Below are positions 3,334 through 30,858 of a stretch of DNA of 64,000 nt, in pieces. Within the stretch, counting starts at the first letter, position 1. Each line of letters begins with the position of its first letter. Source of the DNA: Oscillatoria sp. FACHB-1406 (GTDB lineage Bacteria > Cyanobacteriota > Cyanobacteriia > Cyanobacteriales > Spirulinaceae). Location of the stretch: positions 1 to 64,000 of the forward strand of contig NZ_JACJSM010000005.1 of assembly GCF_014698145.1 (NCBI RefSeq). The letters are read 5' to 3'. The notes under the pieces were generated by a model, which was not told the DNA's origin, did no database searches, and saw nothing but the letters and a program-made list of their open reading frames with translations. A program made the position numbers and the translations under genes.

Positions 3334-3624
3334 ATGCTGACTTTGTTTTACAATACCGTACAAATTTTAAAACCGATCTTGGTTCCTTTGTGCTTCGTCG
3401 TTGCTTGGACATTCTTTCTGCTTTTAGGGTGGTCGCTCTTTAGCAGTATTCGCGATGTCTTGCAACGGAGTAAAGTGATGCACGATATTCCCTGTACGAA
3501 CTGCCAGTTTTTTACAAATGACTATCGATTAAAATGTACGGTTCGCCCACACATTGCGAATACCGAAAATGCGATCGGTTGTTTGGATTATCGCGGTAAA
3601 GAAAACCCGTTTTCTTTGTATTGA
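3334..3624 (+). CDS. Small conserved cyanobacterial membrane protein with four cysteines
   Basis: This 96-residue protein has one or two hydrophobic stretches between residues 8 and 38 (ILKPILVPLCFVVAWTFFLL). A soluble tail of about 55 residues follows, with the pattern CTNCQFF...KC...GCLDY. The spaced cysteines could bind a metal or form disulphides. It resembles uncharacterised cyanobacterial proteins, and no function is known to me. It lies 18 bases after the Hpt gene on the same strand and faces the next gene tail to tail. Confidence 0.6.
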   Translation: MLTLFYNTVQILKPILVPLCFVVAWTFFLLLGWSLFSSIRDVLQRSKVMHDIPCTNCQFFTNDYRLKCTVRPHIANTENAIGCLDYRGKENPFSLY

Positions 3625-3651
3625 TTGTTTTGAATGGAAGGCAGCGTTGAG

Positions 3652-4446
3652 TTACCTCGGTTGGGAAGAACGCGCGCCCATTTTACGAGATAAACGGTCG
3701 AAAGCAAGCGGCATTGGTAGCGGTTGCTGGTTTAACTGACGCTGCCGAACTGCATCTAAGCGTTGCAGGCTTTCGATCGCGGCTTTGCGGACTAAGGCAC
3801 TGGATTCGCGCGCGAGCATGACCTGAATATACTCGATAACGGTTTCGCGATCGCTGGCGCTCAATTTTCCCTTGGCTGCCCGTTGTGCTAATTGTCGCAC
3901 CGCGATCGCGCGTTTGAGGGGATCGTTATCGGTGAGTTCGCCTAACAGTCGCTCGAACCGATCTTCCCAATTTCCCTCGCGGCGATCGCAAATTTGCCAG
4001 CCCAGCAACACCAACGTCAGTATGGTTCCTAACCCTTGAAAGATCGCTCCAACGGCCAGCCAGCGATTTTCGCTTTCCGCCCACATCGAAGTCGCCGCGT
4101 AGGTCAGAAGTGCTGCAAAGCCGCCACTCCCAACGGCAAAGGCAAAGGGACGCTGAGAACTGCGTAAAAAGCGTTCGAGTTGCGATCGATAGGCTTGCCA
4201 ACCGCCTTGCTGTAGCATATAAACCGCTAGCATTGCGCCCATCCCGATAGCCGTTGCTAGCAACAGTTTCCAATCCCAAACGATTAAAAGAGCTAAACCC
4301 AATCCACCAAAAAGCCAACGCTGCGAACCTCGCAAAGTGGAAAAAAGACCATTCAAACCGCGCAGGACTCGGCGTTCTAACTTCAAATCTGCGAGTCTGC
4401 GAGCGAGGTCAACGGATTGCTTTTGCCAAAAGGACGCTTGTGCCAC
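3652..4446 (-). CDS. Membrane protein with C-terminal armadillo/HEAT-like helices
   Basis: The 264-residue protein starts at ATG 4446. A basic N-terminal helix of about 40 residues is followed by hydrophobic segments near residues 45-78, 98-118 and 130-148. The soluble C-terminal 110 residues (RFERLLGELTDNDPLKRAIAVRQLA...VRKAAIESLQRLD) look like two or three HEAT/armadillo repeats. Such repeats usually bind proteins. I know of no assigned function. The last gene on the plus strand ends 27 bases away, so the two are convergent. Confidence 0.6.
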   Translation of the reverse strand: MAQASFWQKQSVDLARRLADLKLERRVLRGLNGLFSTLRGSQRWLFGGLGLALLIVWDWKLLLATAIGMGAMLAVYMLQQGGWQAYRSQLERFLRSSQRPFAFAVGSGGFAALLTYAATSMWAESENRWLAVGAIFQGLGTILTLVLLGWQICDRREGNWEDRFERLLGELTDNDPLKRAIAVRQLAQRAAKGKLSASDRETVIEYIQVMLARESSALVRKAAIESLQRLDAVRQRQLNQQPLPMPLAFDRLSRKMGARSSQPR

Positions 4447-9701: not shown

Positions 9702-10452
9702 AGCGTTGTAGCTCCCTCGAAAAACCGAGCCAAGGTTTAAAGTTTTGTGAAAGCGCGAGTCCCAGAGCGCATCCCTTCAGGCGCGCTCCGCCGGTTTGCA
9801 TCCAGCGTGATTTCTGCGTCTGATGAATAGCTTAAACTTTTTCTCGCCGCTGTCCTGAAGACTACGGAAAGAGTTAAGAAGTTGTAGAAGGAAGAAAGAA
9901 TTTTTGTGCTATCGATAATCATCTACGGGTTAGTGGAACTCAAATCTAAAGAAAGGCTTACGGCGATTTTGCAAGGATCCGAACGACGGCGCGATTTGCC
10001 TGTCGGCAGTTTCAAGGGGGATAACAGAGTCGCAAAGTAGGAATGATGGGAGGTTTAACTATGCTCGCCGCTCAAAAAATAGGAGGTCAGTTAACAACCC
10101 CTCAATCGAAAAAATGTTCTCTCAATTCTACCAGACTGTTTTCGCGGCTCATCTGAACCTAACTCAAGTTCTTCTGTCTTCGGAGTTTTTGAGTTGGATG
10201 ATATAGCATTTTTCGTTTGCGTGAGGTTCGTCGCGCGGGCGAATGCCATTCACCCCTACCCATCTAATTGCAATTGTTGTATCTCATCCATTTGAAAAAC
10301 GCTATAACTCATTCTGTCTCGCCGAAAATAGTGATTTTTACCTAGGTGCGAGCGCTTTTCCTGAGAGCCGAAAAAAGCTCTATCTCCAGAAGGATTCGCG
10401 CGATCGCACCGATGCCGTAAAAATAGGTTAAGTAATTTTTAAACGGTATCCA
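9702..10452. other. 750-base intergenic region, one weak small-ORF candidate
   Basis: No conserved gene is recognisable here. At 10061-10156 a 31-codon frame beginning MLAAQKIGGQ is preceded by GGGAGG seven bases ahead of its ATG, a good ribosome site. The frame at 9737-9922 on the minus strand and the one at 10243-10431 have no support. The region probably also holds the promoter of the 10453 gene. Confidence 0.4.
10061..10156 (+). CDS. Possible 31-residue small protein
   Basis: ATG 10061 follows GGGAGG (10048-10053) with a seven-base spacer, a near-ideal ribosome binding site. The peptide starts MLAAQKIGGQLTTPQSKK and has no membrane segment or known motif. Only the ribosome site and position support it, so the call is tentative. 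Confidence 0.2.
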   Translation: MLAAQKIGGQLTTPQSKKCSLNSTRLFSRLI

Positions 10453-15791: not shown

Positions 15792-17189
15792 CTAAACTCG
15801 ATCGCAAGATCGCTGCCTCGATAACTGTTCCATCGCCGCTACGAATTTGAGAAAATGTTCCGACCACCCGGCAACTTCAGCCGTCCAAACGCCTTGATAA
15901 TTAATCCCGTGTTGGTGGGCGCTGACATCAATGATGTAATTCGTCTTACCAAATGGTTCGGGCAGTTTAGACTTATTGAGATCGCAGTCCTGGGAATCTG
16001 AGAAAACGATAATGCGATCGGGTGTTTTACGTTCTTGTTGGCGAATGTATTCGAGACATTGACGGGTGAAAATACCGCCGCCCCCCAAATTATTCTTACT
16101 GTCTACAATCGCTTGGCTTAGCGCAAAACCGCGATAAGCTGGTAATAATTTCGTGTCATGAATGCGCTTTGCATCGCTGCCTGCTGTCGCATACACGCGC
16201 ATGGTTTCGCATTGTTCTGCTGCTAGCATCGCCATCGCCGCTGCTACATCCATACGCGAAAATTCCGATTTTCTGCTAATCGTTGCGCCCATCGATCCCG
16301 AAACATCAACGACAAAAATAGTTGTGCCGGGAAGCTTTTCGAGATGGGCAAAGCAACGAAACATCATTGATTCAATTTCTCGCATCCAGCGCGGCGAAGC
16401 TTTCGCCGCCGCCCAAAAGTTAATCGGCAGCAAATATTCGGACTTTATCGTTTTAAAGGCTTCTTGAATTGCTCGTTCCGAGACTTCCGCTTGTTCCATA
16501 TTGCGAAGGTTACGCAGAAAAGCGAGCGCGCCTAACTTCCCCTCTTCTAATAACCGTTCCCAACTCTGCTTTTTATCTTGCCCTGTCGAAAGGGCAACTT
16601 CCCAAGTATCGGGCGTTGCTAGCTCGCGTTGGGCGAGTTTTCGGTATAATTCTTCTTTACCGATTTGCGGTTTGCTGTGGACGAGAAAAAGTACATCTCG
16701 CAACTTAACGCCCGTGGCGCGATCGTATTTTGCAAGTTGATATTCGTCGAAGCGAGTTAATGCTTTGGCTAGCCCTTTCTTGACTTGCGCCGAAAGCGGT
16801 TGTTTTCCTTCTTTCCAGTACAACGCAACAAAATCCGTCACCATATCCGCGCGCGTGCAAACATCGTATAACAAGTCAGCAACGTAAGCTTTATGGTCTT
16901 CCAACTTTGCCATTAAGCGAATGAGATAAAGCGGCGTATGACGTAATTTTTGTTGAAAGCGCGCTTCGCGGACAATCTCTGCAACAATTGAGGGCGAAAC
17001 CTGTGGCAGAACTTCAACAATAGCCTCGGAAACGTTCTTGCCGTCTGCGTAGGCGAGATCTTCCCACAACAAGTTCGCCATCACTAATCGGCGCAATGTT
17101 GCCTCTGGTGATTGTACGGCAGCACGCATCCCGAAACCACCCGCTAGGGCGGGAACTTTTTTTTTGGCTTTGCGGTTTAGCTTTGACAT
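15792..17189 (-). CDS. rsr: Ro60 orthologue: TROVE and von Willebrand A domain RNA-binding protein (Rsr)
   Basis: This 465-residue protein is a bacterial Ro60/Rsr. Residues about 15-280 form the TROVE ring of helical repeats that binds Y RNA and misfolded RNA. The vWA domain carries the metal-binding site Asp295-Val-Ser-Gly-Ser-Met (DxSxS), with IIVFSDSQDC further on. In other bacteria Rsr with Y RNA acts with polynucleotide phosphorylase in structured RNA decay and with 23S rRNA maturation under stress. I place the start at ATG 17189. The frame extends to 17252, but that part overlaps a hairpin (17221-17252) and is not conserved. A tRNA-like RNA is encoded just upstream on the same strand. 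Confidence 0.92.
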   Translation of the reverse strand: MSKLNRKAKKKVPALAGGFGMRAAVQSPEATLRRLVMANLLWEDLAYADGKNVSEAIVEVLPQVSPSIVAEIVREARFQQKLRHTPLYLIRLMAKLEDHKAYVADLLYDVCTRADMVTDFVALYWKEGKQPLSAQVKKGLAKALTRFDEYQLAKYDRATGVKLRDVLFLVHSKPQIGKEELYRKLAQRELATPDTWEVALSTGQDKKQSWERLLEEGKLGALAFLRNLRNMEQAEVSERAIQEAFKTIKSEYLLPINFWAAAKASPRWMREIESMMFRCFAHLEKLPGTTIFVVDVSGSMGATISRKSEFSRMDVAAAMAMLAAEQCETMRVYATAGSDAKRIHDTKLLPAYRGFALSQAIVDSKNNLGGGGIFTRQCLEYIRQQERKTPDRIIVFSDSQDCDLNKSKLPEPFGKTNYIIDVSAHQHGINYQGVWTAEVAGWSEHFLKFVAAMEQLSRQRSCDRV

Positions 17190-17220
17190 GGTTCTACAGG
17201 GTGCTTCATCAAAAAAAGCG

Positions 17221-17252
17221 ATGGGACTGAAAAGCAGTGCTTTCAGCCCCAT
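17221..17252 (-). terminator. Hairpin between the Y RNA-like gene and rsr
   Basis: ATGGGACTGAAA (17221-17232) pairs with TTTCAGCCCCAT (17241-17252) in 11 of 12 positions around a short loop. On the minus strand it stands between the RNA gene and the rsr start. It could act as a terminator, attenuator or processing site. Its stem sequence is related to the hairpin at 17564-17591. Confidence 0.4.
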
Positions 17253-17312
17253 TCAGTTTGTTGCGGAACAAGCAGAGACAGCTATATTTAAGCGTTCTAA
17301 CCTATTAAACTA

Positions 17313-17331
17313 CGCAGCGATAACCGCTGCG
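17313..17331 (-). terminator. 3' hairpin of the Y RNA-like gene
   Basis: CGCAGCG (17313-17319) and CGCTGCG (17325-17331) form a perfect 7-bp stem with a 5-base loop, directly after the T-arm of the tRNA-like domain. On the minus strand it is followed by TAGTTTAATAGG, so the T-run is weak. It could be a terminator or a structural part of the RNA. Confidence 0.45.
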
Positions 17332-17472
17332 GCAGGACTCGAACCTACACCTCTCGCGTGACAGGCGAAGTAACTGTTTCTTACACCAGCAACAAATTTA
17401 AAACCTGGGGGAACAAGCGGTTGCGGTGCTTGTTCTTAACCTAAAAGAAGTAACCGCAACCTTCACCACCCA
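17313..17472 (-). ncRNA. Probable bacterial Y RNA (YrlA-like, tRNA-mimicking) upstream of rsr
   Basis: On the minus strand about 160 bases lie between a good promoter and a strong hairpin. The 3' part mimics a tRNA. An anticodon-type arm TTCGC-CTGTCAC-GCGAG (17353-17369) has a GTC triplet. A T-arm GTAGG-TTCGAGT-CCTGC (17332-17348) follows, and a weak D-like arm CTG-GTGTAAGAAA-CAG precedes them. No acceptor stem can form, so it is not a working tRNA-Asp. The 5' part has an 8-bp hairpin GAACAAGC/GCTTGTTC (17411-17435). Its 9-base loop is fully complementary to 17453-17461. Bacterial Y RNAs are known to carry a tRNA-like module and to be encoded next to Rsr. The ends given are inferred from promoter and hairpin. 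Confidence 0.65.
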
Positions 17473-17478
17473 TCCGCT

Positions 17479-17507
17479 ATTCTAGCTCGCGCGATCGCGA
17501 CTGTCCG
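17479..17507 (-). promoter_or_regulatory. Promoter of the Y RNA-like gene
   Basis: On the minus strand, CGGACA (17502-17507, four of six matches to TTGACA) is followed by a 17-base spacer. TAGAAT (17479-17484, five of six matches to TATAAT) comes next. The predicted start is about seven bases further on, near 17472. No open frame uses this promoter before the tRNA-like domain, which supports a non-coding transcript. Confidence 0.55.
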
Positions 17508-30410: not shown

Positions 30411-30696
30411 AGAAATTAAAACTTAAAACTTAAAAATTTCTCACTTCTACTCCTCTGTCAGGGTTCATAATTCAGAGACTATTTATAAACTTTTTATTAA
30501 GAACGCTAGAATGGCAAAACCCGTGATGGGCAAGGGCGGCAAAAGCACTCTTCTGACAATCTGAGGGGCTAAAGAGCCGCCCTTGCCCACCCTACAAGGA
30601 TTTAAGATTAGCTTTATAAATAGTCTCTCATAATTCATAACTCACCATTCATAATTCATAACTCATAACTCAACCATGCTGTACACTAATACAACA
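30411..30696. other. Repeat-rich spacer ahead of the riboswitch
   Basis: The spacer contains AAAACTT tandem copies at 30417-30430 and an inverted repeat element (30525-30595) of the GGGTGGGC family. It also holds a run of CATAATTCATAACTCA-type short repeats at 30627-30672. The transcription start of the cbiX leader probably lies near its end. No gene is seen. Confidence 0.5.
30525..30595. repeat. Inverted-repeat element of the GTAGGGTGGGC family
   Basis: GATGGGCAAGGGCGGC (30525-30540) is matched by GCCGCCCTTGCCCACCCTAC (30576-30595) in reverse. The 35-base centre is unrelated to the other copies. It has the form of a small non-coding MITE-like element. Confidence 0.6.
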
Positions 30697-30845
30697 GTCG
30701 GTTCTGACGGAAGCCAGCCGCCAGAGGCAACGGGGAAAGTACGGTGTAAGTCCGTCGCTGTCCCGCAACTGTGAACTAATGCTCGATCGCGATTTAAGTA
30801 AAGATTTCGAGCTTAGTCAGCCAGGATGCCCGCCGATCGCTCGTT
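30697..30845 (+). promoter_or_regulatory. Cobalamin (adenosylcobalamin) riboswitch
   Basis: The sequence has the conserved pieces of the B12 riboswitch in order. These are GGAAGCCAGCCGCC (about 30709-30722), GGGAAAGTACGGTGTAAGTCC with GTCGCTGTCCCGCAACTGTGA (30733-30773), and the B12 box AGCCAGGATGCCCGCC near 30819-30834. The riboswitch senses adenosylcobalamin and usually lowers expression of downstream cobalamin or cobalt genes. Here it precedes cbiX by about 45 bases. Confidence 0.9.
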
Positions 30846-30858
30846 TACTCACTTAGCT

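Follow-up and report, generated by a model that had tools for sequence, protein, structure and literature searches.

In Deinococcus, the Ro60 orthologue Rsr is accompanied by two Y RNAs, and we know of no settled answer to the question of why bacterial Y RNAs resemble tRNA. Excerpts of previous studies (PMC8394870, PMC8058203) describe Rsr as tethered by a Y RNA to PNPase, with a tRNA-like domain resembling the D, T and acceptor arms, and excerpts of two others (PMC7824862, PMC7765460) already report TROVE/Ro60 proteins in phages. Here we describe a 64,000-nucleotide (nt) stretch of the cyanobacterium Oscillatoria sp. FACHB-1406 (hereafter the window), in which the gene at 15792-17189 on the minus strand is a Ro60 orthologue (rsr) preceded on the same strand by two candidate Y RNAs, Y1 and Y2. 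Rsr-Y RNA pairs are established, and the window pair is a phage-type variant in which Y2 carries a circularly permuted mimic of tRNA-Asp.

The evidence for the pair comes mainly from R1, a covariance model trained on eight Y RNAs from rsr loci outside the window (four from Caulobacter phage CcrColossus, two from Brevundimonas phage Gurke, and those of Deinococcus gobiensis and the viral contig L090), after the shared handle had been recognised by comparing viral and Deinococcus rsr loci. Its RNAalifold consensus comprises a lower stem, an upper stem, a T arm, an acceptor hairpin and a D arm; 25 of 33 pairs have changes on both sides, 92.9% of alignment cells are paired as against 66.5% in shuffles and 40-51% when slid, and on each of five measures the alignment outscores every one of the 500 shuffles and every slid version. 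In a search of the 64-kb window, R1 finds Y2 at 17257-17396 (minus strand, 95.1 bits, E 7e-21) and Y1 at 17404-17474 (minus strand, 45.9 bits, E 3e-9), with the third-best match at only 12.4 bits (E 0.27), so there are two Y RNAs and not the single one given in a preliminary description of this sequence, which overlooked Y1 (17474-17404). One pair is marked non-standard in the printed alignment to Y2, and the handles of both RNAs are intact. Y2 is by far the best R1 match genome-wide, the next being at 49.4 bits on contig C14; Y1 is not among the whole-genome matches listed, for which 150 of 441 first-look candidates were scored. Because related cyanobacteria are without a window-type Rsr (none of the 58 other genomes of the order, 59 having been searched with its own), conservation of the pair was assessed in viral, plasmid and Bacteroidales rsr loci in place of the segment upstream of rsr in relatives, where a comparison had earlier been proposed. 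Among 13 such loci, all hand-picked (8 of 90 phage and plasmid records, 3 of 3 from the search giving L089 and 2 of 2 from Bacteroidales), 11 have R1 matches at E<=0.01, as do seven of the nine held-out loci (L005, L006, L089, L091, L093, L095 and L097); the model also matches two adjacent true tRNA genes in L097 (4707-4840). The Ro60-Y RNA reading of the preliminary description is supported by this model trained only on other loci, and the same architecture is seen beside other phage-type rsr genes. Chen et al. in 2014 reportedly took a tRNA-like domain, in at least one RNA of the locus, as a defining feature of bacterial Y RNAs, and Y2 has one in its T arm, acceptor hairpin and D arm, while R1 finds two stems around a conserved asymmetric internal loop in both Y1 and Y2. 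A motif-and-stem descriptor gave three matches in the window (Y1, Y2 and a composite of the Y1 5' with the Y2 3' motif), as compared with one match in three and two matches in none of 200 dinucleotide shuffles of the window. As the descriptor was devised with the window already in view and detects units in just 4 of the 13 loci compared, R1 is the better test. The features of the locus are as follows.

15792-17189, minus: rsr, a 465-amino-acid (aa) Ro60 orthologue with TROVE and a C-terminal vWA domain with DVSGSM (profile, structure-library and start-codon comparison)
17404-17474, minus: Y1, a short Y RNA of handle and small hairpin loop (R1 model, folding, descriptor)
17461-17453 / 17427-17419, minus: Y1 upper stem
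17418-17410, minus: Y1 3' internal-loop motif GCUUGUUCC
17472-17469 / 17409-17406, minus: Y1 lower stem
17252-17401, minus: Y2, a Y RNA with a permuted tRNA-Asp mimic (R1 model, folding)
17401-17389 / 17264-17252, minus: Y2 lower stem
17374-17388, minus: Y2 5' internal-loop motif UGGUGUAA and upper-stem 5' strand GAAACAG
17353-17369, minus: Y2 anticodon arm UUCGC-CUGUCAC-GCGAG, 5 base pairs (bp; one G-U), 7-nt loop (complementarity and look-alikes elsewhere)
17332-17348, minus: Y2 T arm GUAGG-UUCGAGU-CCUGC (Rfam YrlA match, R1 model)
17313-17331, minus: Y2 acceptor-like hairpin CGCAGCG-GUUAU-CGCUGCG, 7 bp (Rfam YrlA match, folding, R1 model)
17294-17310, minus: Y2 D arm GUUUAAUAGGUUAGAAC (Rfam YrlA match, R1 model)
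17265-17281, minus: Y2 upper-stem 3' strand CUGUCUC and 3' internal-loop motif UGCUUGUUCC (R1 model)
17211-17252, minus: intrinsic-terminator-like hairpin (13 pairs) and T run, between Y2 and rsr (terminator scan)
17479-17507, minus: sigma-70-like promoter CGGACA-N17-TAGAAT, predicted start near 17473 (promoter scan)

The handle common to each Y RNA consists of a lower stem, an asymmetric internal loop (5' UGGUG..A, 3' GCUUGUUCC) and an upper stem, followed by UACUUC. Within the handle of Y2 the order is anticodon arm, variable region, T arm, closed acceptor hairpin and D arm, which is a rotated tRNA order; the Rfam YrlA model (RF02553) matches 17349-17294 on the minus strand with 30 bits, over model positions 30-81 only, and likewise reads a T arm, acceptor-like hairpin and D arm as in a circularly permuted tRNA. 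The T arm (17348-17332) and the anticodon-type arm with its GTC triplet (17369-17353), upstream of rsr on the same strand, had been recognised correctly in the preliminary description. Its statement that no acceptor stem can form does not hold, given the 7-bp acceptor-like hairpin at 17331-17313 between the T and D arms, and the D arm itself (17310-17294) was missing from its tRNA-like module. As single sequences, Y1 folds with a z score of -2.75 (2 of 200 shuffles as good) and Y2 with one of -2.46 (4 of 200). Y2 ends 62 bases before the rsr start codon, and the predicted promoter start coincides with the beginning of Y1. The two RNAs probably belong to a transcription unit of their own, for which the predicted transcript is about 263 nt unless processed, given the terminator-like hairpin at 17252-17211, and not about 160 bases as suggested before. 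Terminator-like matches in the region are near chance (4 found, 3.2 expected from shuffles), the one between Y2 and rsr having the longest stem.

The identification of the gene as a Ro60 orthologue is borne out by the protein. Rsr scores 51.7 bits against Pfam TROVE (cut-off 23; best stretch 55 residues), 25.5 bits against VWA_2, slightly below the cut-off of 27, and E 5.7e-34 against PHROG 850 ('RNA-binding protein'), and its residues 22-456 match two solved TROVE proteins at E 1e-16 (9l5y and 9kop), 9l5y being the Ro60 of Thermus phage phiLo by its structure title. The open reading frame (ORF) carrying rsr spans 15792-17252 (minus strand), with its first ATG at 17252 falling within the terminator-like hairpin, so that the ATG at 17189 is the likely start; the annotated starts of crAss-like phage homologues align with its Met and support this choice.

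Several observations weigh against the Ro60-Y RNA reading. Two of the nine held-out loci, the crAss-like L092 and L094, have no clear R1 match (E 0.14-0.37), and no RNA-decay or RNA-repair gene was noticed among the ORFs nearest rsr, which are only partly classified. The Y RNA covariance search that had been proposed beforehand succeeded with R1, which finds both RNAs, but Y2 misses the curated Rfam YrlA cut-off (30 versus 69 bits). Without its lower stem, Y2 folds little better than shuffles (z -1.03, 30 of 200 as good). In single-sequence folding the handle and acceptor hairpin form whereas the T and D arms do not, and these two arms rest on the covariance model; the anticodon-arm stretch is paired otherwise in that fold, and because R1 leaves the region unpaired, this arm rests on complementarity and look-alike units. 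The promoter is present with the boxes and spacing described before, but is weak evidence by itself because promoter-like matches are at chance level (one found, whereas shuffles average 2.2).

The 7-nt loop CUGUCAC of Y2 is identical to the anticodon loop of the genome's own tRNA-Asp(GUC), located at G000:C7:134560-134633 (also region L115), and GGUUCGA is common to the two. An earlier expectation was that a tRNA-Asp call at this place would speak against a Y RNA, and ARAGORN does call a tRNA-Asp(gtc) at 17323-17395, in line with a real but degenerate tRNA-Asp gene or pseudogene that has Ro60 as a neighbor by coincidence. However, the Rfam tRNA model gives 25.6 bits, below its cut-off of 29, compared with 95.1 bits for R1; the D arm lies 3' of the T arm and the acceptor pairs with itself, so that Y2 lacks the tRNA cloverleaf; the handle is kept in viral loci; and the true tRNA-Asp is elsewhere. 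We judge the ARAGORN call spurious and regard a tRNA-Asp gene here as hardly credible. Y2 is also not a recent copy, as its T stem and D arm differ from those of the own tRNA-Asp. Ordinary tRNA gene clusters of the same genome lie at G000:C5:121569-123868 and C2:144435-145919.

The handle of each Y RNA would probably attach to the outer face of the Rsr ring, Rsr having a putative affinity for Y RNA and for the ends of misfolded RNA. The handle of Y2 displays the circularly permuted, four-armed tRNA-Asp mimic. By analogy with Deinococcus and Salmonella, the Y RNA would gate the ring, and through the tRNA-like module an RNA-processing enzyme (PNPase in RYPER) would be tethered, leading to the degradation of damaged or structured RNA. 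We consider an Rsr-Y RNA pair with such a gate or tether role likely. As the anticodon loop seems unneeded for PNPase binding, Y2 may also act as a bait or a reference for tRNA-acting enzymes such as anticodon nucleases, a tentative proposal that we would sooner doubt than accept. Another possibility is that the tRNA-like module is a processing signal for tRNA-maturing or tRNA-modifying enzymes and neither adaptor nor bait; in its favor, the maturation of permuted tRNA genes in other systems is carried out by tRNA enzymes. The excerpted part of PMC8394870 names DusA and TruB as tRNA-modifying enzymes that accept YrlA as a substrate. However, a 5-nt loop caps the acceptor-like stem of Y2 and leaves it no free end, and Y1 and other short units are, by reading, handles without a tRNA module, which makes a mere processing signal improbable.

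By its sequence, the window Rsr is of phage type. It matches 74 phage records, the best of which is crAss-like (51.6% identity over 99% of the query), and is 54% identical to the Rsr of viral contig L089, 52-54% to those of two Bacteroidales contigs from a pattern-based scan for close relatives and, among the 30 matches listed, 38-40% to Caulobacter, Brevundimonas and Microcystis phage Rsr. When 388 genomes of the order were searched with it, only two matched, its own and one with a divergent TROVE protein (28% identity, E 5e-5), leaving the window Rsr as the sole close match. Given this phage-type identity in a genome that stands alone in its order, horizontal acquisition appears the simplest reading. 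The same isolation, together with the common viral relatives, would fit an inert relic, in which rsr and the Y RNAs are phage-derived and functionless in the cyanobacterium. Against this, the rsr frame is full-length and without stops, both handles are intact, hemA adjoins the locus at higher coordinates on a 261-kb contig, and no phage gene was noticed by eye among the nearest ORFs; we think a functionless relic unlikely. Elsewhere in the window, a cobalamin riboswitch lies at 30682-30851 on the plus strand (Rfam RF00174, 57.2 bits).

In the Oscillatoria genome, two further YrlA matches on contig C14 belong to an array of handle RNAs, and the Pfam model finds no second TROVE gene in this genome. 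Array units have a constant, covarying handle (CGCGCCCUAAC..AAGC / GCUU..AACUUGCGCG) with swapped inserts, namely tRNAs in permuted order, tRNA bodies in ordinary order, anticodon-like hairpins standing alone, 23S helix H69, or the sarcin-ricin loop fused to the GTPase-associated centre. Using a regular expression, we obtained 95 candidate units in 19 loci plus the own contig C10; five rounds of shuffling these 20 loci gave 5-9 matches each, so about 7 of the 95 may be chance. The 19 loci are from this genome and 18 others hand-picked from the best YrlA matches, including some close relatives (L072 and L084 are of the same genus), and the counts are therefore not those of a random sample. Lower-stem letters exchange together in 68 units (C-G with U-A, Fisher 9e-7; G-C with A-U, 3e-8), and although the lower-stem figures are biased, as the expression allows only certain letters there, the exchanges still hold among those letters. 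In the upper stem of 67 units, standard pairs make up 91, 91, 79 and 78% at four positions versus 80, 88, 44 and 62% with 3' arms permuted, with no signal at the fifth (48 versus 45%), and the total is reached by none of 5000 permutations in a corrected register. With the original register there was no sign of handle covariation (1950 of 2000 permutations scored as high or higher) because the expression had shifted the 5' arm by one base in many units; the correction was made after viewing the data, not blind, and 67 of the 95 units were parsed (68 in the original register), the rest being dropped.

A T-arm-like motif occurs in 52 array units, with a D motif after it in 25 (permuted), before it in 4 and none found in 23; several of the non-permuted units are called tRNA by ARAGORN. 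Anticodon-like hairpins are present in 13 of the 25 permuted units (shuffles average 6.7, 3 of 200 as high), a modest signal, so not every permuted unit has that arm. The arrays also match rRNA. At E<=0.01, six of the 95 units match the genome's own 23S rRNA at 1905-1937 (87-95% over 21-33 nt) and four at 1060-1134 (66-75% over 59-72 nt), while a unit on the own contig C39 matches both 1063-1131 and 2636-2666 (the latter 77% over 31 nt, E 0.005). We take these segments to be H69 (1905-1937), the GTPase-associated centre (1060-1134) and the sarcin-ricin loop (2636-2666). About one match could be chance with 96 queries at E 0.01, and the weakest 23S matches are not firm singly; the Rfam 23S model independently picks the C39 unit at 49.4 bits, just below its cut-off of 50.

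Individual loci illustrate the range of these units. On C14 (L004, G000:C14:84000-97000), an array of at least four handle RNAs at 6886-6200 (minus strand) holds a permuted tRNA-Arg-like unit, a handle enclosing a tRNA-Leu-like body, a 23S H69 mimic (6387) and a second permuted tRNA; a 66-aa gene and a NACHT gene lie upstream of the array, and there is no TROVE gene at this locus. The C39 unit (L132, G000:C39:6000-14500; about 3540-3745, minus strand) is a handle RNA fusing sarcin-ricin and GTPase-associated-centre mimics, directly upstream of a NADAR-domain gene (144.6 bits). In L072 (11834) and L084 (1459), a sarcin-ricin/GTPase-centre unit stands beside a gene for a KptA/Tpt1 RNA 2'-phosphotransferase, and in L073 (8799) the second gene after such a unit is of the ThiF family (98.7 bits). 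On C10 (L088, G000:C10:52000-66500), a mini-unit at 10164 (minus strand), just upstream of a Ro60-like gene, has the tRNA-Asp anticodon loop CUGUCAC.

The arrays have protein-coding neighbors of their own. The 66-aa gene is found in 17 of the 19 array loci and a Ro60-like gene of about 480 aa in 13, the latter occurring, whole or partial, somewhere in all 19 array genomes. No Pfam TROVE match was obtained for the 480-aa protein; its vWA half only matches vWA_Ro60 (18.2 bits, sub-threshold) and PHROG 850 (E 1.2e-7). Foldseek with its AlphaFold model, of middling confidence (pLDDT 70.6, pTM 0.48), gave eight matches under E 0.001, all Ro60, and VIA-align ranked D. radiodurans Rsr first (Z 17.9, rmsd 5.0 over 421 residues); all of its top ten rows are Ro60/TROVE, and proteins with a vWA domain alone come next, at about 13. 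Its link to the TROVE half rests on the fold, and we class it as a probable divergent Ro60-fold protein; a profile of it gave nothing clear against window-type and canonical Rsr (best E 0.007; window Rsr E 0.53). The gene is present in 72 of 195 genomes of the order (G051 marginal, some fragments) and in 20 of a phylum-wide sample of 292, two of them outside the order. The Oscillatoria copy (L088 7205-9997, minus strand) is interrupted by an intein (Intein_splicing, LAGLIDADG) at the vWA metal site. In addition, four array loci have an L7/L12 paralogue (L074 4368-4751, PF00542 90.4 bits; L069, L077 and L081) and four a KptA-type gene, the families having been checked on one and two members, respectively. 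PADLOC found nothing on five proteins at E 0.01, and the 66-aa protein matches no family above cut-off.

In this genome several Ro60-type systems, the window locus among them, may jointly form a decoy library of the translation machinery, in which the units would be bait or sensors for ribonucleases and other toxins attacking tRNA or ribosome hot spots, read out by a Ro60-like ring and linked to RNA repair; we see the case for this as almost evenly balanced, leaning slightly to the negative. If true, arrays mimicking the ribosome factor-binding centre would shift Ro60 biology from RNA decay to the surveillance of attacks on translation. With a complete rotated tRNA-Asp and its real anticodon loop encoded beside rsr, a role as bait or adaptor can be tested directly. 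The cyanobacterial arrays with tRNA and rRNA mimics are the most novel lead; no literature match for such handle-RNA arrays was found by title and abstract start, a search that left out the main YrlA papers, so that novelty is unproven. In the excerpt of PMC6424891, on another species, erythromycin was followed by a dramatic rise of a cyanobacterial TROVE transcript 'for unknown reasons', a finding on which the array and bait reading may bear; the excerpt of PMC11423583, also on another species, places TROVE and RtcB transcripts among the top risers in coculture under far-red light.

A cyanobacterial Ro60-Y RNA pair had been thought poorly described, yet a Pfam TROVE match is found in 45 of 195 genomes of the order, and in 14 of these, by hand matching, a YrlA match lies no more than about 2.5 kb upstream of the TROVE gene and on its strand (G000, the Oscillatoria genome, and 014, 033, 040, 043, 055, 097, 118, 122, 157, 180, 189, 190 and 191). 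YrlA-model matches at E<=0.001 occur in 59 of the 195, with the gathering score of 69 bits reached in none, and 57 of these 59 carry TROVE or the array Ro60-like gene (Fisher P 8e-18, uncorrected for relatedness). Artefacts from tandem tRNA genes are a real risk because the model also gives matches in 6 of 14 control genomes, E. coli among them, and some matches are, by reading, such genes (L010, L022); for the window this explanation was rejected since the handle is also present. A canonical handle motif (GGGUCGAAGAAUUGAGGGUUAUCG-like) was matched, without a shuffle control, in 26 of 29 TROVE loci, in one of them (L064) not upstream. By these searches, Rsr-Y RNA pairs look ordinary in cyanobacteria, and none of our observations points to a connection with photosynthesis. 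Canonical cyanobacterial TROVE genes (L039-L067) resemble the window gene in having Y-like RNAs upstream, often several per locus and, by eye, some with anticodon-like loops of different identity, but differ in the GGGUCGAAGAAUUGAGGGUUAUCG-like handle and in a longer, divergent Rsr (frames mostly 534-610 aa).

Y2 has the T arm, acceptor hairpin and D arm in common with Rfam YrlA, permuted in the same way, but has an extra anticodon arm and a handle that the YrlA model leaves unmatched. The D. gobiensis plasmid (L098), whose Rsr is 44% identical to that of the window, also has a Y RNA with T and D arms directly upstream of rsr, with motifs near-identical to those of the window (GGUGGUGAAG ... 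GUUCCUUC ... GCCUGUUCCCCC). By eye a second short unit precedes the tRNA-like one there, of which R1 reports only the latter at E<=0.01, and this RNA seemingly has a small hairpin where Y2 has the CUGUCAC arm, as an example of phage-type-related Y RNAs without a comparable anticodon arm. Phage rsr loci lie in viral genomes, often with several units and tRNA genes, whereas the window locus is cyanobacterial and beside hemA; in crAss-like loci the R1 matches are weak or missing, unlike in the window. In CcrColossus (L096), an annotated tRNA-Gln (2176-2243) lies inside the R1 match at 2170-2338, a training sequence, and is thus probably a Y RNA. The phage loci of CcrColossus, Gurke (L099) and the crAss-like group have the same handle and permuted tRNA module as Y2, and some of their units carry anticodon-like loops (CUGUUAA at 2499 in CcrColossus, CUGCUAA at 2757 in Gurke), just as Y2 carries one.

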